64,000 nt of DNA, taken from positions 186,001 through 250,000 of the forward strand of contig CALMNL010000005.1 in assembly GCA_937868765.1 (NCBI GenBank), given 5' to 3'. The position numbers and the translations under genes are program-made. This document shows positions 41,798 through 63,071 of this stretch, piece after piece. This DNA comes from an uncultured Desulfatitalea sp. (lineage in GTDB: Bacteria > Desulfobacterota > Desulfobacteria > Desulfobacterales > Desulfosarcinaceae). The notes beneath the pieces were generated by a model. It was not told the DNA's origin. It made no database searches and saw only the letters and a program-made list of their open reading frames with translations. Numbering within the stretch: position 1 is the stretch's first letter; the number at the start of each line of letters is the position of its first letter.

Positions 41798-41810
41798 AAG
41801 TTAAATCCTC

Positions 41811-45445: not shown

Positions 45446-45653
45446 ATGTAGTTCTCTACGAAGCCAAGTTTTCGAAATATTGAGAAATGGGATCAATGTT
45501 CCGGGTATGAATAGGTCGCTTTTACCGGCTCATTGGCGGAATTTTAGTGCGCGGAAAAAGATTTTAGAGCGGAAATCGGACAGTTTGAATCTCCATCCCA
45601 AGTGAAGTTCGGAAAACATGACACTGCATCGATCAACGATTCGAATGGCTTTT

Positions 45654-45932
45654 TTAAGGGTTCAGCTTATCCCTTGATTACCCCGAGCACTTAAACGTCA
45701 CCACTTTCCGTGCGGACAGCATTAGAACCTATCCAGTCGCTGGGTTTCGTCCACGGCTCTGTCCCTTGCTCTTTCAGAATTTGCCGAACCCACTCACCAG
45801 GAGATCATCACCCCTCGCCAGGGTGCCTTTGATGATCTCAAGCATGCGCTCAATGATCTGGAATCTCCTCTTTTTGGGGAAACCATTCTGCTCGGCGATC
45901 ACTTAAACGAGTTGGGCTTTGGTCAGGGTCAT
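45654..45932 (-). pseudogene. ihfA: ihfA (integration host factor alpha) pseudogene
   Basis: Reading leftward from an ATG at 45932 gives MTLTKAQLV, then a 93-codon frame clearly homologous to IHF-alpha: GFPKKRRFQIIERMLEIIKG, VSGFGKF, then RGRNPATG (the DNA-bending loop) and RKVVTFKCSG. Four in-frame nonsense codons interrupt it, at codons 10 (TAA), 53 (TGA), 68 (TAG) and 85 (TAA). No indel is needed to keep the frame, and the length equals an intact gene. It must be dead unless stops are read through. Confidence 0.85.
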
Positions 45933-46358
45933 CGGAAACCTGCCTTCTTGGGGGATGGTTTAAGATATTATTTGGCACTTCGATCTATTTCGCTGGCCAC
46001 TTCAGCACCTCGAAAATTGGATTTGGCACAGGTCTGGGTAAAACAATAGTTCCAAGTCCATCTCCACCGCCGACCTCACAGAACCCACTAAGAGGAGCGA
46101 CCGACTATGGCCATCAACGATCTGTTTCAAGGAATCATGAAGAGTATCAAACAGTTTGCCGACGAGATCGCCGAACAGCGGCTGCAGTAAAAAATGCAGG
46201 AGTCCGGACGAGGTCCGGCGAATGGGAGGGAGAATGCGGAGAATATTGAGGCGTAAGAGAAGCGAGGTGTGACGAATTTCCCGAAAAGGGAGTGATCGGG
46301 GCGGGAGCGCCGACACCCTGAAAGCGGCATAAGTCGCTGACAATGCGAAGAAAAACAA
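45933..46358. other. Intergenic between ihfA pseudogene and terminator
   Basis: Only one tiny frame has a ribosome site: ATG at 46107 after AAGAGGAGCG, giving a 27-residue peptide (MAINDLFQGIMKSIKQFADE...) that stops at 46190. It may be the start of a truncated gene. Nothing else is supported. Confidence 0.3.
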
Positions 46359-46405
46359 AACCCGCCCAATAACCGGACGCGGTTAGTGGGCGGGTTATCT
46401 TTTTT
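46359..46405. terminator. Bidirectional terminator on the chromosome side of the att site
   Basis: AACCCGCCCA (46359-46368) pairs with TGGGCGGGTT (46387-46396). After one mismatch TAACCG pairs with CGGTTA around a GACG loop. T-runs follow on both strands. Its place directly after the tmRNA 3'-end copy suggests it was the tmRNA terminator. Confidence 0.8.
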
Positions 46406-46409
46406 AAAT

Positions 46410-46423
46410 TGGTGGAGGCGGCG
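46410..46423 (-). other. Attachment-site remnant: 3' end of tmRNA (ssrA)
   Basis: On the minus strand the 14 bases CGCCGCCTCCACCA match the usual 3' end of bacterial tmRNA, a common integrase target. No other part of ssrA is present. GC content drops sharply on the right side, and the BREX operon begins ~350 bases further. A tRNA 3' end is a less likely alternative. Confidence 0.65.
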
Positions 46424-46771
46424 TCCATCATATTTCGCAAATAATATATTTTATTTCAAAATGTTAATTTATTTTATTTAAATAAATACCGTTAAAAATA
46501 CCGTCAATTGTCATTCGCTACAATGAATTAAACTTTTAGCTTTCTCCGCATGCCTGCATTTTTACACATTAACCCAAAATAAACCCTTAATCAGACAATT
46601 ATACGACTTCATCATGTGATTGATTTCATATTCAGTCACCACCAAACTCTTAAGGGTGATATTAATATAATGCTATTAAAAGCTTTGACAGCAACTGTCA
46701 ATAACTGTTAGTTTTGTACTTATTTTGAGGTGTGAGGTTGAGTTTTGCCTTGATATTGGAGGGTGCGTTTG
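46424..46771. promoter_or_regulatory. AT-rich leader of the BREX operon
   Basis: About 350 AT-rich bases with no gene. AAATACCGT occurs twice, at 46484 and 46496. A TATAAT box sits at 46666-46671 with a poor -35. A perfect palindrome TTGACAG-CAA-CTGTCAA follows at 46685-46701, a candidate operator for the HTH protein encoded next. Confidence 0.55.
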
Positions 46772-46978
46772 ATGACAGAAAAACCAGGCGATGTCCTAAC
46801 CATTGAGGAGCTGGCCGTCTACCTGAAGGTCCCGAAATCGACGCTTTACAAACTCGTTCGAGAAGGCAAGATCCCCTCCCAAAAGATCGGCCGTCACTGG
46901 CGATTCCGAAAAGGAGCCATTGATCATTGGCTCGAGGAAACGCGGGTGACTGAGCCCGGATCAGGAGGAGATCGCTAA
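46772..46978 (+). CDS. Small excisionase-type HTH protein leading the BREX operon
   Basis: 68 residues from the ATG at 46772, with GGAGG nine bases upstream; the frame opens at a GTG nine bases earlier. The sequence LTIEELAVYLKVPKSTLYKLVREGKIPSQKIGRHWRFRKGAIDHWL is the classic HTH_17/excisionase fold. It overlaps brxF by one base (TAATG). Likely a regulator of the BREX operon; a role in element excision is possible because the att site is only ~350 bases away. Confidence 0.85.
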   Translation: MTEKPGDVLTIEELAVYLKVPKSTLYKLVREGKIPSQKIGRHWRFRKGAIDHWLEETRVTEPGSGGDR

Positions 46979-47454
46979 TGGCGGAACCTCTCGCCGATAG
47001 AGTCTTAAAGAGAGTCGAACAGGCTGCTGAGTTGTACCACCGCCTCGTCATACTTGTGGCTCCGGCTGGTGGAGGCAAGACTGCAGCGTTTCAGGACATT
47101 CACGAGCGAACGGCGGCTCCGCTGATCAATGTCAACCTCGAGCTGTCACGGCGCATGCTCGATCTCACTGAGCGCCAGCGGGCATTGCAGTTGCCCCGCC
47201 TTCTCTCGGAGATTGTCGTCGCAGCCGCAACTGACATGGTCTTGCTGGACAACGTCGAGGTCCTCTTTGACATCTCTCTAAAACATGATCCAGTGCGGCT
47301 CCTGCAGGGGCTCTCACGGAATAAGACGGTGGTTGCGGCCTGGAGCGGCTCCATCAACGGCGAAAACATTGTTTATGCGACGCCGGATCATCCCGAATAC
47401 AGACGTTATCCCGTACGAGATTTCCTGGTAGTGAACTCGGAGGCTATTACATGA
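46978..47454 (+). CDS. brxF: BREX type 3 protein BrxF
   Basis: 158 residues, a small P-loop ATPase: Walker A APAGGGKT near residue 34 and Walker B VLLDNVE near residue 90. Small size and position directly before a BrxC of ~1200 residues are diagnostic of type 3 BREX. GGAGGAG lies just upstream of the ATG. It overlaps the HTH gene by one base, and its stop overlaps a 13-codon bridging ORF. Confidence 0.88.
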
Positions 47455-47492
47455 AAATACAGAACGAAAGCGCAGGGGGGCAGACGCGATGA
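47451..47492 (+). CDS. 13-codon bridging ORF between brxF and brxC
   Basis: ATG at 47451 overlaps the brxF stop as ATGA. The frame [13 protein letters not shown] ends in TGA at 47490-47492, which overlaps the brxC ATG at 47489 as ATGA again. It would carry ribosomes from one gene into the next. Expression as a peptide is unproven. Confidence 0.4.
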
Positions 47493-50400
47493 AATACGGA
47501 GAGTTGATTCAGTTCGAGCCTATCGAGTCTGTTGTGCAATTGAGAGACGCCGACGAGGCCACTGCAGCCCGCCAACTGGTTCAGACTTATGTCATCTCCG
47601 AGGAGATGGCCGATAAGCTGGTAAACCTTGTTGTTCCTCAGCTCCAGTTCGATCAGCCCATGGATAATAAGGGCTTGTTGGTCGTTGGTAATTACGGCAC
47701 CGGTAAGTCTCACCTCATGTCCGTAATCTCCGCCCTGGCCGAAAACGGCGATCTCGCGGTACATTTGAACGACAAGCGTGTGTCCAGCGCCGCGGGCAAA
47801 ATCAGCGGGCGCTTCAAGGTGGTTAGAACAGAGATTGGCGCAACCACCATGACTTTGCGCGACATCCTGGTGGCCGAATTGGAAGAGCACCTTGCTGCGA
47901 TGGGCGTGGCCTATTCGTTCCCGGCCGCAGACAAGGTCCCCAACAACAAGCGCGCCTTCGAAGAAATGATGACCGCATTCTACCAGGAGTATCCCGATCA
48001 CGGTCTGCTCCTGGTAGTGGATGAGCTGCTCGATTACCTGCGCACACGCAAGGATCAGGAACTGATCCTCGACCTCAACTTTCTGCGTGAGATCGGAGAG
48101 GTTTGCAAGGACCTGCGCTTTCGCTTCATCGCCGGAGTTCAGGAAGCCATCTTCGATAGTCCGCGTTTTTCCTTCGTAGCCGACAGCATCCGTCGGGTTA
48201 AGGATCGCTTCGAGCAAATCCTCATCGCCCGAAGGGATGTTAAGTTCGTGGTGGCCGAGCGTCTACTCAAGAAAACTACCGACCAGCAGGTGAAAATCCG
48301 GGAGTACCTCACCCCGTTCGCCAAGTTCTATGGTAGGATGAATGAGCGCATGGACGAGTTCGTGGGCCTCTTTCCCGTGCATCCAGACTATATAGATACA
48401 TTTGAACGGGTCACAGCGGTTGAAAAACGCGAGGTGCTCAAGACCTTGTCACTGGCCATGAAGAAGCTACTCGGCCAGGACGTACCTGACAACCGGCCCG
48501 GGGTTATAGCCTATGACAGCTACTGGACCGCTCTGCGTGAGAACCCGTCCTTCCGCGCCGTGCCGGACATCAAGGCAGTCATCGACTGCAGCCAGGTGCT
48601 CGAATCTCGCATCCAGCAGGCCTTTACTCGCCCTGCATACAAACCAATGGCTTTGCAGCTTATCCATGCGTTGTCGGTCCATCGCCTGACGACGGGGGAC
48701 ATTTACGCCTCCTTGGGAGCGACAGCGGAGGAACTGCGCGACGGCTTATGCCTCTTTCAACCGGGGATCGAGGAGTTGGGCGGCGATCCGGCCGACGATC
48801 TGCTCTCCCAGGTTGAGACCGTCCTGCGGGAAATACACAAAACCGTCAGCGGGCAGTTCATCTCTACAAATCCCGACAACCGCCAGTATTATTTGGACCT
48901 AAAGAAGACCGACGATTTCGACGCACTGATCGAGAAGCGGGCAGAAAGCCTCGATTCTTCACAGCTCGACCGCTACTACTACGAGGCGCTCCGACGGGTT
49001 ATGGAATGTACCGATCAAACCTATGTGACAGGCTACAAGATATGGCAGCACGAGCTCGAATGGCTGGAGCGCAAGGCCGCCCGCCAGGGATACCTTTTCT
49101 TCGGTGCTCCTAACGAACGATCCACAGCAGTGCCGCCGAGGGATTTCTATCTCTACTTCATCCAACCTTTTGACGCACCGCATTTCAAGGACGAGAAAAA
49201 GCCCGACGAGCTTTTCCTCCGCCTGGCAAATATTGATGAGGAGTTCCGCGCCGCACTACGTAATTACGCGGCGGCCCTCGATTTGGCAGCTGCCGCTTCC
49301 GGTCATGCTAAGTCCACCTATGAATCCAAGGCGTCCAACTTCCTGCGCGACCTCGTACAGTGGCTCCAAAAAAACATGACCACAGCTTTTGAGGTCACCT
49401 ACCATGGGCGCTCTAAGTCGCTCACCGAATGGGCTAAGGGGAAATCCATTCGCGAGCTTTCCGGCATCGGTTCCCATGAGCGCATTAATTTTCGCGATTT
49501 GGTGAACACCATCGCAGGTATATGCCTCGAGACCAGATTCCAGGACCAGGCGCCCGAATATCCGTTCTTTTCAGTGTTGATTACTGGCGCCAACCGGGCC
49601 CAGGCAGCTCAAGACACGCTTCGCGCTATCGCCGGACAGAACCGCACCAAACAAGCCACTGCGGTGTTGGACGCGCTGGAGCTGCTCGACGGTGACCGAC
49701 TCGACCCATACCGCTCCAAATACGCCAAGCATATTCTCGGCGTAGCCCAAAAAAAGGGCCATGGGCAGGTAGTAAACCGTTCCGAACTGATTCAGGATGT
49801 TCTCGGCGTGGAGTACCTCGCACCACAATCCCTCCGGTTGGAGCCCGAATGGGCCGTAGTGGTGTTGGCTTCGTTGGTCTATGCCGGCGAGGCGGCTCTC
49901 TCCATCCCGGGAAAAAAGTTCGATGCCACGGGTCTGCCGCATCTGGCCGGGACAGGCATTGACGAGCTGGTAAAGTTCAAGCACATCGAACGGCCCAAGG
50001 ACTGGAACCTTCCAGCGCTCAAGGCGCTTTTTGAACTGCTCGGGCTCACGCCGGGCATGGCCCAACTGGTAACCCAGGGCAAGGATGAACCTGTCCAGGA
50101 GCTGCAAAAAGCCGTCACAGTCGTAGTGGAGAAACTGGTGCTCGCGCAGCAGAGCCTTCAGACCGGACTGTTCTTCTGGGGTCGTGGGCTCCAAGCTGAG
50201 GAAGAGGTCAAGAAGGTCCGCACCAAATTGGACGAGACCAAGACTTTCCTCGAATCCCTACAAGCATACACCACGACCGGAAAGCTCAAAAATTTCCGTT
50301 ATGACACCTCAGAGGTGACCGCTCATCGGAGTGGGCTCAAATCCCTTGATGAAATCAAATCGCTTGAGGAATTGGTGGTGGACCTCGGGTCCACGGCATC

Positions 50401-51217
50401 ATACCTATCCACCGCCGAAGCGGTGCTGCCCACTGGCCACGAGTGGATCGACAAGATGAAAGCGGCACGGGAGGAGATCCTCGCCCAGATCAGCGATCCG
50501 GCCAAAAGGAGTGCGGCCACCTTCCGCCAGCAGACCCAGCGCAGGCTCGGCGAGCTTAAGAAGACCTACCTCCTGGCCTACCTCTCCATGCACGCCAAGG
50601 CGCGTCTTGGTGTAAATGAGGACAAGCGCAAGGCCCAACTTATGGGTGATGAGCGGCTCAAGGGTCTACAGAAGCTCTCAACCATCGATCTGATGCCGCG
50701 CCAGCACCTCTCAGATTTCCAGAACCGGCTCGCGGGATTGAAGAGCTGTTTTGCGCTCACCGAGCAGGAACTGCAGGCCTCGCCGGTCTGCCCCCATTGC
50801 AACTTTAAGCCGGGCTCAGAACCGCCCACGGCTCCTGCGGCGACAATGCTGGACTCCCTGGACGTCGGGCTCGATAAGATGGTCGAGAATTGGACCCAGA
50901 CGCTGCTCACCAACCTCGAAGACCCGACCACGAAGGGGAACCTGAGTCTGCTCATGCCAGGACCGCACAAATTGGTGGATGGCTTCATCAAGAAACGAAC
51001 CCTGCCCGACGACCTTGATCAGGATTTCATTCACGCCTTGCAGGAGGTGCTTTCCGGGCTGACCAAGGTTCCGGTCAAGATCGGAGACCTCCGCGACGCC
51101 TTGCTCGCAGGGGGTTCGCCGGTGACACCAGCGGAGTTGAGAAAGCGGTTCGATGAATACCTGGACGGACTGACCAAGGGCAAGGAGCCCGGCAAAGTCC
51201 GGATCGTATTGGAGTAA
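47489..51217 (+). CDS. brxC: BREX protein BrxC (DUF6079, large P-loop ATPase)
   Basis: 1242 residues, the normal size for BrxC/PglY. Walker A is [14 protein letters not shown] near residue 65 and a Walker B-like [12 protein letters not shown] near residue 172. The C-terminal ~450 residues are largely helical with coiled-coil stretches, and CPHCN near residue 1108 may bind zinc. BrxC is required for phage defence and methylation in studied BREX systems. It stops 4 bases before the next gene. Confidence 0.93.
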
Positions 51218-51221
51218 CACC

Positions 51222-53042
51222 GTGGATCATGAAGAATTGATAGCCCGGCTCAACAAATATGAATGGAATGATGTTGAGTTCAAAAAGGCTCAGCGTGGCG
51301 TACCAGAAGATGTATACGAAAGCGTTTCTGCTTTTGCCAATACATCAGGCGGCTATCTGGTATTCGGTGTTCAGGACAATCGCGGATCATTCGAAATCGT
51401 TGGTGTAATTGAAGTCGACAAGGTTCAGAACGATTTTCTGAGTTGCCTTCGCGCCGGAAACAAGTTTAACTGCGCGATATCTGTTCAAGAGAGTGCATTG
51501 GAGCACGAAGGAAAAACGCTATTGGTGTTCCATGTGCCTGAGGCGCGCCGAAAAGATAAACCGATTTATCTGCAGGGAGATATTAGAAAATCCTACATCC
51601 GACGAGGAGGCGGCGATGAGCGATGCAGTGGGCCTGAGATCGAGCGCTTTCTTCGCGATGCAGCGGAAACCACCTATGACAACGAAGTCATGTCCGGCCT
51701 GAATGCTGAGGATTTTTTTGACCAACCCTCGGTCACATGGTATCGCCGGGTGCTTCAAGAGAAACAGGCCAATCGACATGCCGATCTAAGCGATGTGGAG
51801 TTCCTCAACGAATGGGGCCTCGTTGTCGAATCAGATCAAGATCTTAAGCCAACCCGCGCCGCAGTTTTGCTTTTTGGCAAAGCTCGCATTTTGCGAAGCT
51901 TACTTCCTCGCGGTGTGGTCGATTACCAACGGATCGATTTGCCGTTCGACCAATGGTCACCGGAACATCGCTGGAGTGACCGTGTGGTACTGGAAGAGAA
52001 TATCATTCAAGCTTGGCAAGTGTTGGTCGAGAAATATTTCCGTCTTTCAGAGAGGCCCTTCTCAGTCGATGCCGCTACCTTGCGCCGACATGATGACCCA
52101 CCAGACTACATTTCCTTCCGAGAAGCTTCCATAAACCTGCTCATCCATCAGGATTTTGGTGATCAAACCAGAAAACCGGTCATCAAAATATTCGCAGACC
52201 GCACGGTGTTTTGGAATCCTGGAGACGCGTTCGTCAATGTGGATCAACTATTAGACCCAATCGAAAAGGAAGTGCGCAACCCTGCCATTGTTGCGGCTTT
52301 TCGACGGATCGGTCTGAGTGACCAAGCAGGCACAGGGGTTCGTTCCATTTTTGGTAATTGGCGACAATTGGGATTCGTTCCTCCACTTATAAGCAACGAC
52401 AAGGGAGAAAAAACATTCGAAATCACCTTGCTTAAGGAAACGCTGCTCACTGAGGAGCAACGACTTTTTCAAGCCCAATTGGGCGTGCGGCTCTCCGACC
52501 AGGAAGCAGCCGTCTTTGCTTACGCCTGCCGCGCAGGTTCGGTCGGTATCACAGATGCCAAAGCGGTAATGGGGCGCGGGGAGCGAGAAGCCGGCCAGGT
52601 TTTAGATCACCTTGTCACTCAAACTCTCCTGGCGGTGTTAGAACCCAGCGTACGATGGGGACTTGCACCCCATCTCCAGGATCGCTTCACTCAAAGCGAC
52701 CAAATGGCAAACAAAACGGAGAGCTTGGTCACTAACCAACCTACCGAACAGCCTGGAAGCTTGGTCACTCCGAGACTGACCAAGCTGACCGAGCATCAGC
52801 GGAAAATTATGTTCCTTTGCGAGATACCACGGAGCCAGGCAGACCTCATGAAGGCGCTTGGCTTGTCCCATCGCACCTTTTTCAAGCGCACTCATTTGGA
52901 CCCTCTGATAAAGGCGAATCTGGTCCGCATGACGCACCCCGAAGAGCCGAACCATCCCAATCAGGCCTATGTCGTCACAGAAGCCGGGCTCAGCCTTCTC
53001 GCGTCCTGGAAAACGAACTCTAAGCCCAGAGGCAAACCATGA
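51222..53042 (+). CDS. AlbA_2 / GHKL-type ATP-binding protein embedded in BREX
   Basis: 606 residues from a GTG at 51222. Residues ~10-130 form the Schlafen AlbA_2 domain (EFKKAQRGVPEDVYESVSAFANTSGGYLVFGV). Residues ~300-400 form the HATPase_c_4 region (SFREASINLLIHQDFGD, IFADRTVFWNPGDAF, RNPAIVAAFRRIGL, GTGVRSIFGNW). The C-terminus has winged-helix-like modules with LVT repeats. Such proteins act as regulators or effectors and recur in defence islands. It is not a core type 3 BREX component, so it is an inserted accessory gene. Its stop overlaps a 30-codon ORF by ATGA. Confidence 0.85.
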   Translation: MDHEELIARLNKYEWNDVEFKKAQRGVPEDVYESVSAFANTSGGYLVFGVQDNRGSFEIVGVIEVDKVQNDFLSCLRAGNKFNCAISVQESALEHEGKTLLVFHVPEARRKDKPIYLQGDIRKSYIRRGGGDERCSGPEIERFLRDAAETTYDNEVMSGLNAEDFFDQPSVTWYRRVLQEKQANRHADLSDVEFLNEWGLVVESDQDLKPTRAAVLLFGKARILRSLLPRGVVDYQRIDLPFDQWSPEHRWSDRVVLEENIIQAWQVLVEKYFRLSERPFSVDAATLRRHDDPPDYISFREASINLLIHQDFGDQTRKPVIKIFADRTVFWNPGDAFVNVDQLLDPIEKEVRNPAIVAAFRRIGLSDQAGTGVRSIFGNWRQLGFVPPLISNDKGEKTFEITLLKETLLTEEQRLFQAQLGVRLSDQEAAVFAYACRAGSVGITDAKAVMGRGEREAGQVLDHLVTQTLLAVLEPSVRWGLAPHLQDRFTQSDQMANKTESLVTNQPTEQPGSLVTPRLTKLTEHQRKIMFLCEIPRSQADLMKALGLSHRTFFKRTHLDPLIKANLVRMTHPEEPNHPNQAYVVTEAGLSLLASWKTNSKPRGKP

Positions 53043-53131
53043 CCGACCTTTCCGCTCAAATTAATACGAGCACTGCACAAGATGGCGAATGTGACGAGAA
53101 GTTGGTCACTAAACACATTCACAGAAAATGA
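53039..53131 (+). CDS. 30-codon bridging ORF between the AlbA_2 gene and pglX
   Basis: ATG at 53039 overlaps the upstream stop (ATGA) and the TGA at 53129-53131 overlaps the first pglX ATG at 53128. The peptide (MTDLSAQINTSTAQDGE...) contains KLVTK, echoing the SLVTN and SLVTP repeats at the end of the AlbA_2 protein. It may be a shed repeat of that gene kept for translational coupling. Confidence 0.4.
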   Translation: MTDLSAQINTSTAQDGECDEKLVTKHIHRK

Positions 53132-55971
53132 GGAAGTTCATGACAAAGCATGACCACAGGACACAGATTTCAATATTTCCGGAAAAGGGTGAGCAATCTA
53201 TGGGGCCGGTGGAATGCCTCGGAATGAGGTTTATGAACGACGAAAAACGGCGCAACTATTTCCTCGGTATTCTACAGGAGAAGCTGGGGGACCACGAATT
53301 CCGCAAAGCTGATGGATTCCCCATTGGCTCCGACAAGGACATTTTGGCGCTGTCAGATCCGCCTTACTATACTGCCTGTCCAAACCCATTCATTGAGGAG
53401 TTTATTAAGCATTATGGCAAGGCCTACGATCCGATGAAGCCATACAGCCGCGAGCCTTTCGCCGCAGATGTGAGCGAAGGTAAGAACGATCCGATTTACA
53501 ACGCCCATTCATACCATACCAAAGTGCCGCACAAAGCCATCATGCGGTACATCCTGCACTACACCGAGCCGGGAGATGTGGTATTCGATGGTTTTTGTGG
53601 TACTGGGATGATGGGTGTCGCAGCTCAACTGTGCGGGGATAAGGCGGTGGTCGAATCTTTGGGCTACATGGTGAATAAAGACGGAACCATTCTTCAGCAC
53701 GAAACAGACGAGAACGGTAAGTCAATTTGGAAGCCGTTCTCAAAACTTGGCTCACGCCGGGCCGTGCTCAATGATCTTTCTCCGGCGGCTACTTTCATCG
53801 CTTATAACTACAACATACCGGTGGATGCACCGGCGTTTAAGAGGGAGGCAAAGCGCATCCTAAAGGAAGTCGAAGATGAATGCGGCTGGATGTACCACAC
53901 GTTGCATTCTGACGGTAAGACTGAATGCAAAATTAATTATGCGATATGGTCAGATGTATTTGTCTGCCCAGAATGTGCAGGTGAGCTCGTTTTTTGGGAT
54001 GTTGCGGTAGATAAAGATAATGGATTGGTTCGCTCGGAATTTAGTTGTCCGAGCTGCCACGCCATACTGACAAAACGGTCACTTGACCGAGCTTTTATTA
54101 CATTCAGTGACGTTGGCCTTGGAACACCGACAAGACAAGCCAAGCAAGTCCCTGTACTGTACAACTATAACTTTTTAAAACGCTCCTATATGAAAACCTT
54201 GGGGCCCTTTGACTTAAAATTGTTGGAAAAGATCAATGCCATCACTTCAGAAGAATGGTTTCCATCTGCACGGATGCCTGAGGGTGACGAATCTCGTAGA
54301 AATGACGACGCTGGAATTACACATACTCATCATTTTTATACAAAACGAAATAGACTAACCCTGGCCAAGTTTTTTTCCAAGTGCTCTTCGCATTTATGCA
54401 AATGGCTCGTTACTGGAACAATGCAGCGTGCTTCTAAGCAACACCAAATTGCGATTTCACGGATTGGAGGTCCCAAAGCAGGAGAGGGGGGGGCTACTGC
54501 TGGACATAGAAGAGGAACCCTGTATATTCCCTCCAATCAAGTGGAATTTAGTCCCTTTTCCCTCATTTCGGAAAGACTCAAAATGTCATTGAAGACGGCA
54601 AATAGGCCATGGGCAAGTAATAGAGAGTTCGCCATCGAGACAGCCTCCGTCACACAAACGCGCATCGGTGATAATGAAGTTGACTACGTATTCACCGATC
54701 CACCATTTGGTGGGAATATCATGTATTCAGAATTGAATTTCATATGGGAATCAATTTTACGGGTCAGGACAAATTCAGAAAAAGAAGCTATAACGAACAA
54801 AACCCAAAAGAAGATGCTGCTTGATTATCAAGATCTCATGTACAGATGTTTCGGTGAATATTTTCGAGTTCTAAAGCCAGGTAGATGGATGACCGTAGAG
54901 TTTCATAATTCGCAAAATGCAGTCTGGTCGTCTATTCAAGAATCTCTTCAAAAAGCAGGCTTTGTTGTAGCAGATGTTCGAATATTGGACAAAAAAATAA
55001 AGACCCATACACAAAGAACTGCTGGCGGATCTGTCAATAAGGATTTGGCGATAACGGCATATAAACCCAACGGCGGACTTGAGGAACGCTTCAAGCTTGA
55101 AGCTGGCACTGAAGAAGGCGTTTGGGATTTCATCCGCACTCACCTGAATCAGCTCCCAGTTTTTGTCTCCAAAGACGGACAAGCCGAAGTTATCGCTGAG
55201 CGCCAAAATTACTTGCTCTTCGATCGCATGGTAGCTTTCCACGTCCAGCGTGGTGTGACAGTCCCGCTATCAGCAGCGGAATTTTATACTGGACTTGTTC
55301 AGAGGTTTTCTGAGAGAGATGGTATGTTTTTTCTCTCCGACCAGGTCGCTGAATACGATAAGAAGCGTATGAAGGTCCGCGAGGTTTTGCAGCTTGAGCT
55401 ATTTGTTACTGATGAATCATCGGCTATCCAATGGCTCAAACAGCAGCTCGTTAAGAAGCCACAAACCTTCCAGGAGCTTCACCCACAGTTCCTCAAAGAG
55501 ATCGGCGGCTGGCAGAAACATGAAAAGCCATTAGAACTTTCACAGCTCCTTGATGACACCTTCTTATGCTACGATGGCAAGGGAGAGGTGCCGAGCCAGA
55601 TTCACAGCTATCTATCCACAAACTATAAGGAACTGCGTAATCTGCCAAAGGATGCTCTGGAACTCCAGAATAAGGGGAAAAATCGTTGGTTTGTGCCCGA
55701 TCCGAACAAGGCTGGCGATATGGAGAAGAAACGGGAGAAGGCTCTACTCAAGGAGTTCGAGGAATACAGGACTTCCAGCCAAAAGCGTCTGAAAGTGTTC
55801 CGTCTCGAGGCCGTCCGCGCCGGATTCAAAAAAGCATGGCAAGAAAAATCAAATGAGGGATACCGAACCATTATTGAGGTAGCCAGGAAAATACCCGAGA
55901 ATGTCCTCCAGGAAGACCCAAAACTCCTAATGTGGTATGACCAAGCTCTCACACGAACTGGAGAAGAGTGA
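53128..55971 (+). CDS. pglX: BREX type 3 adenine-specific DNA methyltransferase PglXI
   Basis: 947 residues; a second start at 53140 has GAGGAAG upstream. SAM-binding motif FDGFCGTGMMG lies near residue 155. Two DPP(Y/F) motifs exist: SDPPYY near residue 76 and FTDPPFGGN near 523. A four-cysteine zinc ribbon (CPECAGEL ... CPSCHAIL) lies between. This fits the COG1743/DUF1156-type PglXI. It marks host DNA for BREX. The centre (about 53890-55120) is AT-richer than both ends. A G8 tract at 54486-54493 invites frameshift slippage. Confidence 0.9.
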   Translation: MRKFMTKHDHRTQISIFPEKGEQSMGPVECLGMRFMNDEKRRNYFLGILQEKLGDHEFRKADGFPIGSDKDILALSDPPYYTACPNPFIEEFIKHYGKAYDPMKPYSREPFAADVSEGKNDPIYNAHSYHTKVPHKAIMRYILHYTEPGDVVFDGFCGTGMMGVAAQLCGDKAVVESLGYMVNKDGTILQHETDENGKSIWKPFSKLGSRRAVLNDLSPAATFIAYNYNIPVDAPAFKREAKRILKEVEDECGWMYHTLHSDGKTECKINYAIWSDVFVCPECAGELVFWDVAVDKDNGLVRSEFSCPSCHAILTKRSLDRAFITFSDVGLGTPTRQAKQVPVLYNYNFLKRSYMKTLGPFDLKLLEKINAITSEEWFPSARMPEGDESRRNDDAGITHTHHFYTKRNRLTLAKFFSKCSSHLCKWLVTGTMQRASKQHQIAISRIGGPKAGEGGATAGHRRGTLYIPSNQVEFSPFSLISERLKMSLKTANRPWASNREFAIETASVTQTRIGDNEVDYVFTDPPFGGNIMYSELNFIWESILRVRTNSEKEAITNKTQKKMLLDYQDLMYRCFGEYFRVLKPGRWMTVEFHNSQNAVWSSIQESLQKAGFVVADVRILDKKIKTHTQRTAGGSVNKDLAITAYKPNGGLEERFKLEAGTEEGVWDFIRTHLNQLPVFVSKDGQAEVIAERQNYLLFDRMVAFHVQRGVTVPLSAAEFYTGLVQRFSERDGMFFLSDQVAEYDKKRMKVREVLQLELFVTDESSAIQWLKQQLVKKPQTFQELHPQFLKEIGGWQKHEKPLELSQLLDDTFLCYDGKGEVPSQIHSYLSTNYKELRNLPKDALELQNKGKNRWFVPDPNKAGDMEKKREKALLKEFEEYRTSSQKRLKVFRLEAVRAGFKKAWQEKSNEGYRTIIEVARKIPENVLQEDPKLLMWYDQALTRTGEE
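54486..54493 (+). repeat. G8 homopolymer tract inside pglX
   Basis: Eight Gs within codons for Glu-Gly-Gly-Ala. Loss of one G gives a TGA after about 33 codons; gain of one gives a TAG within about six codons. Either would end PglX near residue 460-490, before the DPPF motif. Confidence 0.8.
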
Positions 55972-56666
55972 TGCCAGAGAGATGGATTCACAAAGACCTT
56001 ACTCATAAGGTAGAAGATATCCTTTCTCAGGCCGACGCATACCACATAAAATATTATGCATCAGAAACGTTCAGCGGCCCATCTTTATATTTCCACCGTC
56101 GTGCTCTTGCAGATCAGGATATAAGTTGGACGGAAAAAATAGAATTAATTTATGCCGTGTTGGCATCTTGGGGTATGCATCGTATGGGGGCGAAAGGCTC
56201 AAAGATGCAGCGATTTGTTGATTTTGAAAAGAGCATCACTTCTGTGCGAACTGATATCGATATGTTAGGACAAAAAGAGCTCAACGCTCTCACCAAATCT
56301 GATTGGGATGCCATCGAAAGAGTATTTAAGGGCATTAAAGTCATGGCAAGCGGGGCTACAATCGTTGGGAACTCAAAAGTCATGGCGCACATTCTACCGA
56401 AGATAGTTGCGCCTGTTGATCGGGAGTATACTCTCAATTACCTGTTTGGTAACAAGATGTTTCAAAATGGCCTTGAGCGAGAATGGAAATTAATGCGCAA
56501 GATCCTATTGGACTTCTACCATCCCATTGCAACAGATAGAAAATTCCAGGACAAAGCCAAGGTCTGGATTGCTGACGAAGACTGCTTTCAATGGGATACA
56601 TCGATTTTGAAAGTTGTTGATAACTTGGTTATTGGTGCGGTGCGAAAGATAAACGATGCAGATTGA
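55971..56666 (+). CDS. Protein of unknown function embedded in BREX
   Basis: 231 residues from the ATG at 55971 (GTG at 55968 also possible); GGAG lies upstream and the ATG overlaps the pglX stop (TGATG). Notable stretches are YAVLASWGMHRMGAKGSKM and SKVMAHILPKIVAPVDREYTLNYLFGN, which recur in a widespread uncharacterised family. The helical layout loosely recalls HhH-type DNA glycosylases, but no catalytic Lys/Asp pair is evident. It is not a core BREX gene. It is AT-richer than brxH and overlaps it by 11 bases. Confidence 0.75.
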   Translation: MPERWIHKDLTHKVEDILSQADAYHIKYYASETFSGPSLYFHRRALADQDISWTEKIELIYAVLASWGMHRMGAKGSKMQRFVDFEKSITSVRTDIDMLGQKELNALTKSDWDAIERVFKGIKVMASGATIVGNSKVMAHILPKIVAPVDREYTLNYLFGNKMFQNGLEREWKLMRKILLDFYHPIATDRKFQDKAKVWIADEDCFQWDTSILKVVDNLVIGAVRKINDAD

Positions 56667-59496
56667 TGCGAATAGCTGGTACTACAGCCCGGACCATGGG
56701 CAGCTCTGTCAGGTTATCGAAGTTCAGACGCTTTGGAGTGAAACGACATGCCGTATCTGGCTGCCCGGGCGCGACTCTGTGGTCCGAATACACGCCTCCC
56801 GGCTCAAACCCATTGAGAGTGCTCGTACCAGCTCGCCGGATAATATTGCCTACATTGCTGCCGCCGCGCGTGTGGCCGACGCTCTGACTCAGGACGTCCT
56901 GCTCGCGCCTATCGAGTCCTCCGTCATCCCGCTTCCGCACCAGATCCGGGCCCTGTCCCGCGCCATCAGCAACGACCGGGTGCGCTATCTCCTGGCGGAC
57001 GAGGTCGGCCTGGGCAAGACCATCGAGGCCGGACTCATCCTGCGGGAGCTCAAGCTTCGTGGGCTGGTCAAGCGGACGCTCGTCATTGCCCCGAAAGGAC
57101 TGGTGAACCAGTGGGTCAGCGAGATGCGATTTCATTTCGGAGAGACCTTCCAGCTCGTGCTCCCCGAGGATATCAAGACCCTGAAAAGGATTGCACCGTC
57201 CTCCGGCCCAGAAAACGGGAACCACAATCCAGAAGCGCTGCCCGCCAATACATGGCAGATGTTCTCTCAAGTGGTTGTGCCGATGGATTCGGTCAAGCCT
57301 CTGGACAAGCGCCGCGGCTGGAGCGCGGCCCAGGTGGGCGAGCACAACCGCGAGCGATTTGAGGACCTGATCTCCGCCGGCTGGGACCTGGTCATCGTGG
57401 ACGAAGCGCACCGTCTCGGCGGCAGCACCGATCAAGTAGCCCGATTCAAGTTGGGCCAGGGCCTGGCCGAGGCTGCGCCATATTTCCTCCTGCTCTCGGC
57501 CACACCGCATCAGGGAAAGACCGACGCTTTTCATCGGCTGGTTTCCCTGATCGACGCCCAGGAGTTCCCGGACGTCGGCAGCGTGACCCGCGAGCGGGTT
57601 CAGCCGCATGTCATCCGCACCGAGAAACGCCGAGCCATCGATGCCGATGGGAAACCCCTGTTCAAACCGAGGCGCACGCAGCTTGGCCCGGTCTCCTGGG
57701 AAGAGCGGCACCGCAATCAGCAGCACCTCTACGAGGCGGTCACCGAATACGTGAGGGAAGGCTACAACCAGGCCATGCGTGATAAGCGGAGCTACATCGG
57801 CTTCCTGATGATCCTGATGCAGCGCCTGGTGGTCTCCAGCACGAGCGCCATTCGCACTACGCTTGAAAGGCGGCTCGAGGTGCTCGTCGCGCCCCAGGAA
57901 CAACTGACTCTGTTTCCACTCATCTCCGAAGAGGAATGGGCGGACCTGGACGGCCAGGAGCAGATCGATGTGCTGCTCCGCACCCGCCTCAAGGCGCTCA
58001 AGAACGAGCGGGCCGAGGTCAAGTTGCTATTAGAGGCCGCGGCCCGCTGCGAGCAGATTGGCCCGGACGCTAAGGCCGAGGCGCTGCTCGACTGGCTCTA
58101 TCGCCTCCAGTCCGAGGAGAGCGATCCGGAGCTCAAGGCGCTCGTGTTCACCGAGTTCGTTCCCACCCAGGAAATGTTGCGTCGATTCCTGACCGAGCGC
58201 GGGTTCTCGGTTGTGTGCCTCAACGGCTCCATGGACCTGGAAGAACGTAAGCGAGTCCAGGAGGACTTCGCCAAGGATGTTCGCATTCTCATCTCTACTG
58301 ACGCCGGCGGGGAGGGATTGAACCTCCAGTTCTGCCACGTGGTGATCAATTACGACATCCCCTGGAATCCGATGCGCCTCGAACAACGGATCGGCCGGGT
58401 AGATCGTATCGGCCAGGCCCATGCGGTTCGTGCGGTCAACTTCGTCTTCGAAGGCTCGGTCGAACATCGGGTCCGTGAGGTGCTGGAGCAGAAGCTCGCC
58501 GTCATTTTCGAGGATTTCGGCATCGATAAGACCGGCGACGTCCTCGACTCGGCCCAGGCGGGTCACATGTTCGACGAGATGTATGTCGAGGCGATCCTCA
58601 ATCCCGAAAAGGTGGAGGAATCCGTGGAGAACGTGGTCGCCCGCTTGCAGGAGCAGGCCCGCGAGGCGCGCACGACCGCATCCGTGCTCGGCGCGATTAC
58701 CGACCTGGAGCCTGGCGAAGCCCAGCGGCTGTTGACTCACCCCTTGCCCCATTGGGTCGAGCGCATGACCGTGAGCTACCTGAAGGCGCATGGCGGCCAG
58801 GCCGAGAAAAGAAGCCAGAGCTGGAACCTCACTTGGCCCGACGGCGAGACCTACGAGAATGTGGTCTTCACCGGCAAGGAAGCCGAGAGGCGTCCGGCCG
58901 CCCGGCATCTTACTCTTGAAGAGCCGAAGGTCCGCGGACTGGCCATGCGGCTCCCCCGTTTTGCGCCGGGCCAGCCGGTCCCCATCGTGTCGATCCCAGG
59001 TCTCTCAGAGGAAGTTCAGGGCGTCTGGTCTTTGTGGCGGATCGCGATTGCCACCATGGAGTGGAACCGTCGACGGATCATGCCTCTTTTCTTATCTGAC
59101 AACGGCATGGTCTATATGCCGACGGCCAGACACGTGTGGAATCACCTTCTCGCGGCAAACACAAAGGTCCGATCCGTTCTTGACGTCGAGGTATCCCAAT
59201 CCGCTTTCGAAAAGCTGCAAAACGCCGCGGAGGAACACGGGAAACCTATCTACGAAGCGCTCCTGCAGGAGCACCGGGGCCGCATCGCACGCGAGCGTGA
59301 GAAGGCCGACTACGCCTTCGCCGCGCGCCGTAAGACCGTCGAGCGGATCGGCCTGCCCCAGGTCCGTAACTATCGACTGAACCTCCTCTCGCAGGAGGAG
59401 CGAAGCTTCCAGGAGCAGCTCGATCAGAAGGCCCATGCCTATCCCGAAATGGTGCCGCTGCTTGTGATTCGGGTGGAGGGCGGTGTTCATGAGTAG
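56656..59496 (+). CDS. brxHII: BREX type 3 helicase BrxHII (SNF2-like)
   Basis: 946 residues. Superfamily 2 motifs in order: LLADEVGLGKTIEAGLIL (I), VIAPKGLVNQW (Ia), VIVDEAHRL (II, DEAH), LLLSATPHQGKT (III), LVFTEFVPTQEM (IV), ILISTDAGGEGLNLQ (V) and QRIGRVDRIGQ (VI). The C-terminal ~300 residues carry a long helical tail. It matches the BrxHII slot of type 3 BREX, a predicted DNA translocase or helicase. It overlaps the gene before by 11 bases and pglZ by 8. Confidence 0.92.
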   Translation: MQIDANSWYYSPDHGQLCQVIEVQTLWSETTCRIWLPGRDSVVRIHASRLKPIESARTSSPDNIAYIAAAARVADALTQDVLLAPIESSVIPLPHQIRALSRAISNDRVRYLLADEVGLGKTIEAGLILRELKLRGLVKRTLVIAPKGLVNQWVSEMRFHFGETFQLVLPEDIKTLKRIAPSSGPENGNHNPEALPANTWQMFSQVVVPMDSVKPLDKRRGWSAAQVGEHNRERFEDLISAGWDLVIVDEAHRLGGSTDQVARFKLGQGLAEAAPYFLLLSATPHQGKTDAFHRLVSLIDAQEFPDVGSVTRERVQPHVIRTEKRRAIDADGKPLFKPRRTQLGPVSWEERHRNQQHLYEAVTEYVREGYNQAMRDKRSYIGFLMILMQRLVVSSTSAIRTTLERRLEVLVAPQEQLTLFPLISEEEWADLDGQEQIDVLLRTRLKALKNERAEVKLLLEAAARCEQIGPDAKAEALLDWLYRLQSEESDPELKALVFTEFVPTQEMLRRFLTERGFSVVCLNGSMDLEERKRVQEDFAKDVRILISTDAGGEGLNLQFCHVVINYDIPWNPMRLEQRIGRVDRIGQAHAVRAVNFVFEGSVEHRVREVLEQKLAVIFEDFGIDKTGDVLDSAQAGHMFDEMYVEAILNPEKVEESVENVVARLQEQAREARTTASVLGAITDLEPGEAQRLLTHPLPHWVERMTVSYLKAHGGQAEKRSQSWNLTWPDGETYENVVFTGKEAERRPAARHLTLEEPKVRGLAMRLPRFAPGQPVPIVSIPGLSEEVQGVWSLWRIAIATMEWNRRRIMPLFLSDNGMVYMPTARHVWNHLLAANTKVRSVLDVEVSQSAFEKLQNAAEEHGKPIYEALLQEHRGRIAREREKADYAFAARRKTVERIGLPQVRNYRLNLLSQEERSFQEQLDQKAHAYPEMVPLLVIRVEGGVHE

Positions 59497-61495
59497 CTGG
59501 CGCGATCAAATCCTGAAGGAATTTACCCCGAAGGTCGCCCGACTCACCCTGGTGGCCGATCCGGACGGACTCCTCCTCGAAGAAGGGATTCTCGAAGGCA
59601 TCCGCGAGCGCGGATTCGAGCTGATCCCGTTTGAGGACCACATCGCATTCCGTTATGCCTACGAGTCGAAGTTCCGCTCCCGCTGGGACCGCGGCGAGCA
59701 CACGGATCTGGTCGTCGTATTGCGTTCCCAAGCAAGCGACCTCAGCGGATTGCCTTATGATCTGCTCCAGGCCGGTCGCAGACTTTCCTTCAACCTTGGT
59801 GACATCTTCCCGAACCTGAGTTACCCGGTTGTGTCCGCCCTGGATCGCGGGGACCTCGATGCCTTATATGAGGCGCAGAAGAGACATGCTCCCGGTCAGT
59901 TGGGCGACAACGCCACCAAGGAGTTCGTCCTCCGGCACGTCTTTGAAATCGCGCCCGAACTGGTCAAACAGCCATCGGACCTCTTGCGGGTGCTGCTGCG
60001 CCGTCACTACCGCGGCCAAAGAATCCCTGCTGACCTCGACGGACGGTTCATCCTGCTTCTGCGCCAAAGTAACGTCTTCGACGACTGGCCACTTGAGACG
60101 CTGGTAGCGGACAGAGAAGCCTTCTTCACGTTCCTGCAAGAGCGCTGGCCGATCTTCCTTGACCGTGAAGCAGCCAAAGGGACATCCGGTGTACGTGAGG
60201 ACGAGAAGCCCTATGGTCTATCCATTAAGGGACCTATCGAACTTCCTTTCGGCCACCATGACATCCGGGTCTACATCGATAACCTGTTCGTCGAGGGGTT
60301 GCTGCACTCAGTTCCACACGAGCATGTGAACACCTTGTCCAAGACCTGGGTAGGCATCGGCGTTCGAACCGCTCCCATCGAAGACAGGTCCCGTCGCCTG
60401 GGTAAGCTCATCGACAGCCTGGAGGCATCCATTCCGGCCGAGGACGCGAAGCACACGGACTGGTTCCACTTTGCCCGCGGATGGGCGGAGACGATCCTGC
60501 TGGCGAACGATCAGGCCGAAGCGATTTCCGAACCGACGGGCGAGCGCATCAAGAACTTGCAGGCACAGATGGATGCCGGTTTCGCAGGTTGGCTCTTCAA
60601 GCGGTATGCCGGGCTTGTCAACCTGCCACCGGTGCCTCCGGTCATGTTGCATCACCTCCCGCGGTTTCTTGCCCGCCAAATGGGAGAAGACCACACCGCC
60701 AAGATCGCACTGATCGTGGTGGACGGCCTTGCCTTGGACCAATGGCTGGTGGTCCGCGAAGCACTTGCCACAAAACAGCCCGGGCTGCGATTCCGGGAGC
60801 AGGCGGTCTTTGCCTGGATACCATCGCTTACCTCCGTTTCGCGCCAAGCGACCTTCGCCGGCAGGGCCCCCATCTTTTTCCCGAACAGCATCCAGACAAC
60901 AGACAGAGAACCGGCACTCTGGGCGCAGTTCTGGGCGGACCATGGTTACACAACCAATCAGGTGGTCTATATCAAGGGGTTGGGTGATGGTAGCCTGGAA
61001 TCTGTGTCGGAGGCGATCTCTCACCCGCAGACAAGAATCGCCGGGCTCGTCATTGACAAGGTCGACAAGATCATGCACGGGATGGAAATGGGCACAGCCG
61101 GGATGCACAATCAGGTAGGTCAGTGGGCTAAGCAGCCTTATCTGAGCGCCCTTCTTGATCTGCTCTTTGAGCGTGGATTCCGGGTCTGCCTGACCTCCGA
61201 TCATGGCAACATCGAAGCTACAGGTTGTGGCCGTCCTTTGGAAGGAGTTGTCGCAGACCTACGTGGTGAACGCGTCCGCGTTTATCCAGACTTGTCCCTC
61301 CGCAGCAAAGTGAAAGAACGGTTTCCAACTGCACTTGAATGGGGTTCCATTGGCCTTCCTGAGGACTACGTTGCTCTTTTGGCACCTTCCCGGCAGGCCT
61401 TTATTCAAAACACGCAACACAGTGTAAGTCACGGCGGGATTTCTCTCGAAGAGCTCATCGTCCCTCTGATCCAGATCGAAAGGAGGGGCGAATGA
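59489..61495 (+). CDS. pglZ: BREX protein PglZ (alkaline-phosphatase superfamily)
   Basis: 668 residues from the ATG at 59489, preceded by GGAGG. The PglZ domain lies in the second half: IALIVVDGLALDQW near residue 408, LTSDHGN near residue 567 and HSVSHGGISLEELIVPL at the end. These are metal-binding and fold motifs of the phosphatase superfamily. PglZ is the marker shared by all BREX types. It overlaps brxA by ATGA. Confidence 0.94.
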   Translation: MSSWRDQILKEFTPKVARLTLVADPDGLLLEEGILEGIRERGFELIPFEDHIAFRYAYESKFRSRWDRGEHTDLVVVLRSQASDLSGLPYDLLQAGRRLSFNLGDIFPNLSYPVVSALDRGDLDALYEAQKRHAPGQLGDNATKEFVLRHVFEIAPELVKQPSDLLRVLLRRHYRGQRIPADLDGRFILLLRQSNVFDDWPLETLVADREAFFTFLQERWPIFLDREAAKGTSGVREDEKPYGLSIKGPIELPFGHHDIRVYIDNLFVEGLLHSVPHEHVNTLSKTWVGIGVRTAPIEDRSRRLGKLIDSLEASIPAEDAKHTDWFHFARGWAETILLANDQAEAISEPTGERIKNLQAQMDAGFAGWLFKRYAGLVNLPPVPPVMLHHLPRFLARQMGEDHTAKIALIVVDGLALDQWLVVREALATKQPGLRFREQAVFAWIPSLTSVSRQATFAGRAPIFFPNSIQTTDREPALWAQFWADHGYTTNQVVYIKGLGDGSLESVSEAISHPQTRIAGLVIDKVDKIMHGMEMGTAGMHNQVGQWAKQPYLSALLDLLFERGFRVCLTSDHGNIEATGCGRPLEGVVADLRGERVRVYPDLSLRSKVKERFPTALEWGSIGLPEDYVALLAPSRQAFIQNTQHSVSHGGISLEELIVPLIQIERRGE

Positions 61496-62241
61496 CACGC
61501 AGAACCGATCAAATCGGATTCAGCCAACGAGTGCGCCTGGAATGGCTTGAACGAACAGCCAACATGGTCCTGGCGGGTAATGACAAAAGCGTGATCAGTG
61601 AGGCCCTGCAGGAACTTCTGAAGGACAAGGTCTCCGTGGGGGGACAGGCCGAGCGCGGCAACCGTGAAAAGATCATCACGATTCTTTTGAAAACATGGCT
61701 GACGGTTCCGGGAGAAATCCAGGCCCTGCGCGACGACGGATTGGATATGCTCCAGCGTGTTCCTCGATCCAATCATCTGGCGATCCATTGGGGCATGGTG
61801 ACCGCTGCCTATCCGTTCTGGTCGGGCGTTGCCACACAGGCCGGTCGTCTTCTGAGACTTCAAGGCTCGGCTGCCGCTGCCCATGTCCAGCGCCGGGTCC
61901 GCGAGCAATATGGTGAGCGGGAGACTGTCTCACGCGCAGCGCGCCGAGTGCTGCGCTCATTCTTGGACTGGGGCGTACTGCAGGAGACTGGGTCAAAGGG
62001 TATCTACACCTCCGGGACAACTCTCTCCGTTGAGGACCCGCGACTAATTGCTTGGCTGACTGAAGCCGCCCTCCATGCCCGCGCCAATGACTCGGCCCCA
62101 CTCAGGGACCTTCTTGACAGCCCGAGCTTCTTCCCTTTCCGCATCAAATCTATTCACGCTGAGAGCATTAGAGCTGTTTCCCATAGGCTGGATATTCTCC
62201 GCCACGGTATGGATGATGATCTCATAATGCTCCGTAAATGA
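61492..62241 (+). CDS. brxA: BREX protein BrxA (DUF1819)
   Basis: 249 residues; last gene of the operon as in type 3 BREX. It is a small helical protein with winged-helix-like features (RRVLRSFLDWGVLQETGSKGIY). A BrxA-family protein has been shown to bind DNA. The ATG overlaps the pglZ stop. It converges on the next gene, with 76 AT-rich bases between. Confidence 0.85.
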   Translation: MTRRTDQIGFSQRVRLEWLERTANMVLAGNDKSVISEALQELLKDKVSVGGQAERGNREKIITILLKTWLTVPGEIQALRDDGLDMLQRVPRSNHLAIHWGMVTAAYPFWSGVATQAGRLLRLQGSAAAAHVQRRVREQYGERETVSRAARRVLRSFLDWGVLQETGSKGIYTSGTTLSVEDPRLIAWLTEAALHARANDSAPLRDLLDSPSFFPFRIKSIHAESIRAVSHRLDILRHGMDDDLIMLRK

Positions 62242-62317: not shown

Positions 62318-62941
62318 TTACTCAAACTCATTGATATCAGCTTTGGCCAAAATGCCTAAAGCCTTTTGAGTCGCGATTGCGATTTGTCGCTGCTTCTCGA
62401 TATCTGCAAGAAATTCTTGAACGTGGGTATCCGGTTCGAAATCCTCATTGTTATTATAACTAACTGTATTTTTAGATAAATTAATCAATCCAGCTTTTAT
62501 TTGAAATTCCCCGACCGATACATAAATCCTCCAGAGCAGCTTCAACTCTCTTGTTACCTCTGTCAGTAGATCATCCTTTTCTTCTTCAATGAGCAAACAT
62601 TTTTTCAGTCGGGCCTGTTGAATGGCAATCAAGTTGCTCAACGCCGATGCAATGTTACGCTGTTCAGAAAAAGCCCTATCCGCTTTTGCAACGTTGGTTG
62701 CAAACTTCAATTCTTGAAGACGCTTAATTTTAGGCATGATCGTCTCGTGCTGGAAGTTTCTAATATTTGCTGCAAGCGACTCCAATTTAATCTCTTTATA
62801 GTACCCTTCTGATTGAAGCAGTTTCGCCAAAGCTCTTGATGACATTCCACGGATGATCTGGTGTTCGAACTCATAGTATCTTGGAAGCCCGAGCTCTTCC
62901 ATAAAGGAATTGTATTTCTTGAGTTTGATAGTCACAGCCAT
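62318..62941 (-). CDS. Protein of unknown function on the integrated element
   Basis: 207 residues from the ATG at 62941, which has GGGAG nine bases upstream; the frame is open to a weaker ATG at 63028. The N-terminal half (EELGLPRYYEFEHQIIRGMSSRALAKLLQSEGYY) looks like a helix-turn-helix. The rest is helical with charged, coiled-coil-like stretches (AFSEQRNIASALSNLIAIQQARLKKCLLIEEEKDDL). Codon use is AT-rich, unlike the BREX genes. It lies downstream of the RepA-like gene on the same strand. Confidence 0.65.
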   Translation of the reverse strand: MAVTIKLKKYNSFMEELGLPRYYEFEHQIIRGMSSRALAKLLQSEGYYKEIKLESLAANIRNFQHETIMPKIKRLQELKFATNVAKADRAFSEQRNIASALSNLIAIQQARLKKCLLIEEEKDDLLTEVTRELKLLWRIYVSVGEFQIKAGLINLSKNTVSYNNNEDFEPDTHVQEFLADIEKQRQIAIATQKALGILAKADINEFE

Positions 62942-63071
62942 GTAATCACTCCCAGCGCTAATAGATTTTGAATAACTTGCTGTTTCTACGGCGAATCTAA
63001 TATCCAATAGCCAAAGAGCGAAGGCCATTCTTGTATTGGACCTACGCCCATTGAGTTGCGTTTGTTGATTG

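Follow-up and report, generated by a model that had tools for sequence, protein, structure and literature searches.

Cargo slots flanking pglX in sampled type 3 BREX loci, as seen from a Desulfatitalea operon with a Schlafen-type gene and a predicted glycosylase-like protein

We analysed a stretch of 64,000 nucleotides from an uncultured Desulfatitalea sp. (contig CALMNL010000005.1, positions 186,001 to 250,000; hereafter the window) and observed that it carries a complete type 3 BREX (bacteriophage exclusion) operon at 46772-62241, with all nine genes on the + strand. Besides the six core genes and a small regulator-like gene, the operon holds a Schlafen-type gene between brxC and pglX and a gene for a 231-residue protein between pglX and brxHII. 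In the sampled loci, auxiliary defence genes are recurrently inserted at these two junctions beside pglX, which we call cargo slots. We propose, with a probability of about 0.5, that this is a complete type 3 BREX carried on an element integrated in ssrA, with cargo held in slots on both sides of pglX, the left cargo being a Schlafen RNase-like protein and the right one a member of a new HhH-GPD/Ogg2-like family.

The operon and the inserts beside pglX

The genes of the operon, in their order and with their profile scores, are as follows.

46772-46978, + strand (ATG 46772; alternative GTG 46763): HTH_17 gene, small DNA-binding protein (excisionase/MerR-like); PF12728 1.2e-19, TIGR01764, sub-cutoff MAD1 match
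46978-47454, + strand: brxF; PADLOC BrxF 254 bits, NF033453 192 bits
47489-51217, + strand: brxC (DUF6079); PF19557 1906 bits, BrxC-PglY 2075 bits
51222-53042, + strand: left-slot cargo, Schlafen-type, AlbA_2 + HATPase_c_4 + C-terminal winged helix; PF04326, PF13749, PF21247
53128-55971, + strand: pglXI (BrxXI), adenine methyltransferase; PADLOC PglXI 1445 bits, DPPY motif visible
55971-56666, + strand (ATG): right-slot cargo, 231-residue protein with a predicted HhH-GPD/Ogg2-like fold; predicted models, Lys137 and Asp151 conserved
56656-59496, + strand: brxHII, SNF2-type helicase; PADLOC model named BrxHI|BrxHII, 1584 bits
59483-61495, + strand: pglZ, BREX-3 type; NF033449 854 bits (cut-off 250), PF08665
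61492-62241, + strand: brxA; PADLOC BrxA 347 bits

The PglZ is of the BREX-3 type and above cut-off, and BrxF, BrxC, PglXI, BrxHII and BrxA stand in the canonical order in one operon. An earlier reading, made from the sequence alone, had given this gene order, the single strand, the tight packing and the assignment to type 3 BREX; the coordinates and the hidden Markov model families agree with it on all of these points, and the six core genes score high. Searched for PglZ domains, the genome of the window returned a single match, the window operon. The genes overlap at four places: pglX with the 231-residue gene, whose ATG overlaps the pglX stop; the latter with brxHII, by 11 bp; brxHII with pglZ; and pglZ with brxA. 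The gaps are 4 bp between brxC and the Schlafen-type gene, 34 bp between brxF and brxC and, the largest, 85 bp on the 5' side of pglX. This packing, with genes overlapping or almost adjoining, makes it probable that both extra genes are translated as members of the operon. Eight operon translations were free of inner stops. The HTH_17 protein is the probable regulator of the operon. The 231-residue protein would have 232 residues if GTG 55968 is the start, and Lys137 and Asp151 are numbered on that longer form (P0005).

The operon was compared with related loci in a set of 53 stretches, namely the window and 52 that were fetched, including a contig from a metagenome-assembled genome of Sedimentisphaerales (L052) and three alphaproteobacterial plasmids. 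A first draw yielded 23 genomes over the PglZ cut-off; all 22 besides G000 were used, together with G294, which is below the cut-off. A second draw yielded 31, of which 21 were used as 23 stretches, 3 were already included and 7, lying near a contig end or fragmented, were omitted. Four genomes contributed two loci each. A junction was counted only if both facing gene ends were complete, and an insert was defined as at least 300 bp; short inserts resembling 23S intervening sequences or GxxExxY proteins were counted too, including the brxHII-pglZ exceptions in L041 and L048.

We observed inserts at 24/31 brxC-pglX and 28/32 pglX-brxHII junctions, at 6/41 brxHII-pglZ junctions, and at none of the 20 brxF-brxC and 50 pglZ-brxA junctions. 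Inserts thus occur at 52 of 63 junctions beside pglX compared with 6 of 111 elsewhere (Fisher p = 1.8e-26); the loci come mostly from one phylum and are not independent, so this p value is only a guide. In all three plasmids the right junction is empty (11 bp), and two of them (L094, L096) have a Schlafen gene on the left.

The recurrence of inserts on both sides of pglX supports the earlier reading of both extra genes as accessory modules. Both are intact, and their position is recurrent; the opposite outcome, in which they would be frameshifted, without fixed position and absent from all relatives, was not observed. To describe them as spliced in understated the pattern, as most sampled relatives have inserts there and the other three junctions have them rarely or never. 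The two genes do not form a matched pair: a Schlafen gene is present at 12/31 brxC-pglX junctions (and once, in L113, at pglX-brxHII), and the 231-residue family at 2/32 pglX-brxHII junctions. A single mobile insertion bringing both genes was rejected because the distributions differ. Frameshifted debris was likewise rejected as an account of two intact and conserved genes.

Pfam was run on selected representatives of 99 insert reading frames; that list lacks two Schlafen genes, in L096 and L112, whose open frames begin within brxC, and both are included in the Schlafen count. Among 19 right-slot proteins put to Pfam (the L108 cluster apart), 15 were matched and four were not. The kinds found were OLD-type AAA ATPases, AAA with subtilase, HATPase with PIN, GmrSD, DEAD helicase with DprA, SIR2, Mrr-STAND, AIPR, DUF3644 and DUF488, which we take to be mostly types familiar from defence loci. 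A sister operon of the same genus (L112) has in its left slot a Schlafen gene 52% identical to that of the window, and in its right slot a gene of the DUF3644 cluster. Identities of the core genes between the two operons are 85% (brxC), 87% (brxHII), 87% (brxA), 76% (pglZ), 72% (brxF) and 63% (pglX); variation is greatest from the Schlafen gene through the right cargo, though other genes vary too.

In another same-genus genome (G395; L108 4448-14091), the space between pglX and pglZ holds two RAMP proteins and a Cas10-type palm domain, clustered in what resembles a type III CRISPR effector module within a BREX-3 operon. This locus showed no brxHII between the two genes, and neither did the BREX-3-type loci L099, L106 and L116. 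Small frames also occur at BREX junctions, including brxHII-pglZ: cluster c1 (7 frames; L035, L041, L048, L101, L107, L115), presumably four-helix proteins of the 23S-intervening-sequence-like kind, and c15 (2 frames; L042, L048), presumably GxxExxY-like proteins.

Scars in the right slot

We searched the 53 stretches with profiles of each of the six core genes, both full-length and restricted to the first or last 240 bases. Displaced core-gene pieces came only from pglX and brxHII; a pglZ-head match in L035 (E 2.4e-4), seen in an earlier search, did not recur once the gene starts were refined. Extra pglX 3' ends lie within 5/32 complete pglX-brxHII junctions (L036, L043, L052, L100, L111). 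In four of the 32 (L036, L052, L100, L111) there is a scar, in which an extra brxHII head is joined to an extra pglX tail directly or within 16 bp. The order is invariably head then tail, and the scars stand between successive cargos. Aligned to the loci's own genes, the head ends at base 107 in L052, 88 in L036, 208 in L111 and 158 in L100, and the tail begins about 155, 128, 103 and 106 bases, respectively, before the end of pglX. The L100 scar (10330-10588) is an open, in-frame fusion of a BrxHII N-terminus with a PglX C-terminus, of about 85 codons, and might still be translated; the other scars are broken.

Two whole pglX genes are present in L052 and L109. Lone brxHII heads were found in L035 and, in gene-end searches only, in L048; the head pieces of L048 and L036 were detected by the gene-end searches and not by the whole-gene search, and the L100 head, annotated as a brxH piece in the junction comparison, is not among the extra pieces of the refined end search. 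L114 retains a tail piece of pglX and only the head and tail of a deleted brxHII, and L108 has one inner pglX piece upstream of pglX; the tail in L103 belongs to a gene cut by the contig end.

The simplest reading of these sequences suggests that two pglX-cargo-brxHII units became adjacent and lost their middle, so that the right slot grew by fusion. The scars could instead be decayed remains of a one-off exchange, or of a cassette-like circular cargo intermediate with homology to the pglX end and the brxHII start. A circle carrying a brxHII head and a pglX tail would yield an identical final order, and the remnants are short (about 50-190 bp). However, the join points differ among the four loci, for which a site-specific cassette was set aside, and the two complete pglX genes in a row in L052 and L109 are as a partial collapse of tandem units would give. 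We consider an exchange or a circle rather unlikely, and retain fusion of units as the working explanation.

The two cargos and their proposed roles

The left cargo combines AlbA_2 (PF04326, 64.9 bits), HATPase_c_4 (PF13749, 48.4 bits) and a C-terminal domain (PF21247, Fic-like_C, 46 bits), all above cut-off; the last of these we take, also from its residues, to be a winged helix. All three domains stand in a single protein within the BREX operon, which is the architecture of the Schlafen-type BREX accessory. In at least 1017 taxa, Schlafen RNases that carry a minimal histidine kinase and a winged helix-turn-helix were described as tightly linked to BREX and BREX-related loci (PMC12839542), and the part of that paper on effectors classes the architecture with RNase effectors of BREX and not with regulators. 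The left cargo is thus an already described kind of BREX accessory, and has the Schlafen architecture catalogued there among embedded auxiliary or back-up effectors (PMC12839542). In its E-W-N-D-V-E-F-K segment, two candidate active-site acids, E14 and E19, have the five-residue spacing of the SLFN13 pair E205/E210, as given for that protein (PMC5862951); the second acid is Asp in three distant Schlafen homologues (L036, L038, L046).

The right cargo has 15 relatives, one of them a fragment. A copy 72% identical to it occupies the same pglX-brxHII junction in L052, directly after the scar (a pglX remnant), in a locus whose brxC and brxHII pieces are 89% and 87% identical to those of the window. 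Two distant relatives adjoin other restriction-type systems: the one in L129 is next to a DUF1156 methyltransferase and a SNF2/NOV_C helicase, and the one in L130 follows HsdS, a DUF4062/HATPase_c_4 gene and HsdR in a type I restriction-modification locus. Viral contigs carry 5/16 homologues (found by an alignment-based scan; the plain viral scan gave 0), and no defence system was recognised alongside the other relatives. The family is rare: it occurred in 4/395 and 6/389 genomes of two draws searched for it, both including G000, and among their BREX-3 genomes over the PglZ cut-off in none but G000. A search of 35 genomes among the 50 other BREX-3 genomes, without its own positive control, also found none. 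A scan of genome contigs with the 231-residue protein yielded two loci; plasmid and phage collections gave no relative at E <= 0.001, and a BrxHII scan of the viral contigs gave no match. On one viral contig (L071 8747-9640, minus strand), the homologue adjoins a gene that resembles, by eye, a Mug-type mismatch uracil glycosylase.

In Pfam, NCBIfam, PADLOC and PHROGs there was no usable match to the family (one member touched DUF6308 at E 0.052), and PDB sequences gave one weak, chance-level match each to phmmer with the protein and to hmmsearch with alignment A3. Relative to these libraries, the protein appears to represent an unnamed, new family. For both of its predicted models, the top structural match was to the 8-oxoguanine glycosylases of the Ogg2 type (3knt, 3fhg). 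The family keeps Lys137 in 15/15 and Asp151 in 16/16 at the positions of the Ogg2 pattern K-x3-H-x-L ... D-R, which the two share; in that pattern the catalytic Lys lies in the helix that follows the hairpin, and the Asp where the next helix starts. The structural Z is modest, the Lys-Asp spacing is 14 and not the 18-19 of Ogg2, and there is no detectable sequence similarity to Ogg2. Sequence searches gave no support for the fold: PF00730 and PF22175 (HhH-GPD/Ogg2) matched none of 11 A3 members at E <= 1, hhalign found no match to the Nth, MutY and Ogg groups, and Foldseek alone returned nothing significant. As a prediction of modest strength, we prefer to see in the 231-residue protein an effector with a DNA-glycosylase-like fold and not a regulator; a regulatory role was set aside, as Pfam, PADLOC, NCBIfam and PHROGs searches matched no DNA-binding family.

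The sequence-only reading had left both extra genes as regulators or added effectors, and in both cases the second half of that alternative is favoured, by the RNase effector classification in print of the Schlafen gene (PMC12839542) and by the predicted fold of the 231-residue protein. A regulatory role of the left cargo would accord with its winged helix and HATPase_c_4 domains, and such architectures are also annotated as regulators. Nevertheless, its published class and the fit of E-x4-E-F-K to the SLFN13 catalytic-pair spacing, even with Asp as second acid in three homologues, make regulation of the operon unlikely. The right cargo might be glycosylase-like in fold and yet non-cutting, flipping or sensing modified or damaged bases (or binding host DNA) and guiding BREX or BrxHII. 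The modest Z of both models would allow this; moreover, homologues L053, L056/L059 and L127 have extended N-termini, winged-helix-like by eye, as expected of a DNA reader, and in L129 the homologue is directly upstream of a BrxHII-like SNF2 helicase. But binding alone would not need Lys137 and Asp151 at the Ogg2 catalytic positions, and the full-length L059 and L127 proteins, extensions included, have no Pfam match; we doubt such a reader about as much as the regulatory left cargo. More doubtful still is that the 231-residue gene is a passenger, an ordinary all-helical protein landed in a permissive junction and unrelated to BREX function. Its rarity within BREX-3, its homologues on viral contigs, and the other small inserts at BREX junctions (23S-intervening-sequence-like and GxxExxY-like) would suit a passenger. 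Against it, two distant genomes hold the gene at the same junction, where it starts immediately after the pglX stop (after the pglX remnant in L052); its residues are conserved, and homologues lie beside two further restriction-type systems.

Under the explanation that we prefer, BREX would methylate host sites and block unmethylated phage DNA, and the 231-residue protein would be made by translational coupling to pglX and brxHII. As a predicted glycosylase, it may excise a base modified in the phage or protected in the host, leaving abasic sites or nicks, which would cost even phages that evade BREX their template. The Schlafen protein would act as an abortive back-up. Cargo would be gained through recombination bounded by pglX and brxHII, and in the right slot the fusion of two pglX-cargo-brxHII units would leave the brxHII-head/pglX-tail scar. 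A wider picture, which we hold tentatively and at less than even odds, is that type 3 BREX is a growing defence array with a constant chassis and two bays flanking the methyltransferase, the right bay being lengthened by repeated, scar-leaving unit fusion, and that one cargo is a new, Ogg2-like family of base-excision restriction effectors removing modified or unprotected phage bases.

Compared with type 3 BREX as described (PMC12839542), the window shares all six core genes in canonical order, and differs in the two cargo genes flanking pglX and in the ssrA-integrated element. The effector section of that paper catalogues nucleases; its main text does not contain the words glycosylase or HhH, and we saw in it no analysis of junction preference or scars. 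In the type 1 BREX of Salmonella LT2, an ATPase and a DUF4435 gene are inserted between pglX and pglZ (PMC9009780). As in the window, these are extra genes beside pglX inside the operon, and they are dispensable for methylation; the system is, however, of type 1, the junction is another, and we saw no scars described there (PMC9009780). Brig1 is an anti-phage DNA glycosylase whose homologues often lie near BREX/Pgl genes, and it targets modified-base phages that escape other systems (PMC11078745). The idea of a glycosylase is common to both, on a comparison by description and not by sequence; the 231-residue protein is HhH-GPD/Ogg2-like by predicted fold and is encoded inside the BREX operon. 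The PabI family restricts by base removal and apurinic/apyrimidinic lyase activity, as proposed here, and has the HALFPIPE fold (PMC10273834), whereas our protein is predicted to be all-helical. Among the open-access papers listed by our searches, judged by title and abstract start, none describes such slots for cargo, or scars left by fusion, in BREX of type 3; nor did these searches return a paper joining HhH-GPD with BREX, or helix-hairpin-helix glycosylase with phage defense and restriction-modification. The right cargo family and the slot-and-scar pattern appear to be new, and the BREX core and the left cargo known.

If this explanation is correct, the loose observation of extra BREX effectors would become a rule on where and how they are added, in two slots beside pglX, and the scars would record the order of cargo addition. 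Since anything in these slots is a candidate effector, they could be used as a search tool for unknown defence genes, with the 231-residue family as a first test. A BREX glycosylase would also suggest how a methylation-based system meets phages whose modified bases hide BREX sites, a problem discussed for Brig1 in defence islands (PMC11078745).

The element at ssrA

The BREX operon appears to be the main load, and to take up most, of an integrative element some 21.4 kb long that is inserted at the ssrA 3' end; ssrA, the transfer-messenger RNA gene, is found immediately to the right of the window (L066 4291-4644, minus strand). The ends of the island are well supported. Its features, and that of the left flank, are listed below.

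46354-46408: left flank, outside the island; terminator-like sequence belonging to the host ssrA locus, with (by eye) a similar block next to the 3' end of ssrA in 4/7 same-genus loci
46409-46423, + strand: probable attL, where 15 bp of the ssrA 3' end are repeated, some 350 bp to the left of the HTH gene; repeat search
62318-63028, - strand: island gene, 236 residues, no Pfam match
63237-63998, - strand, running off the window: island AAA_25 ATPase with winged helix; PF13481 2.1e-13
L066 4290-4304 (window-equivalent 67789): second 15-bp copy of the ssrA 3' end; repeat search

We take the AAA_25 ATPase to be replication-type; further island genes encode a primase-type TOPRIM protein and a tyrosine integrase. 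In L146, L147, L149 and L150, the terminator-like block directly abuts ssrA, an arrangement like that of an empty site. As a blastn search with the left flank (40001-47000) matched only the transfer-messenger RNA in the seven ssrA loci of the genus, the empty-site reading rests on the by-eye block in these four loci. A 20-bp repeat, 95% identical, lies just inside both island ends (window 46487-46506 and L066 4158-4177) and outranked the 15-bp att repeat; these are perhaps integrase arm sites. Left of the island, at 45774-45940 on the minus strand, there is a fragment that resembles, by eye, the start of ihfA (integration host factor).

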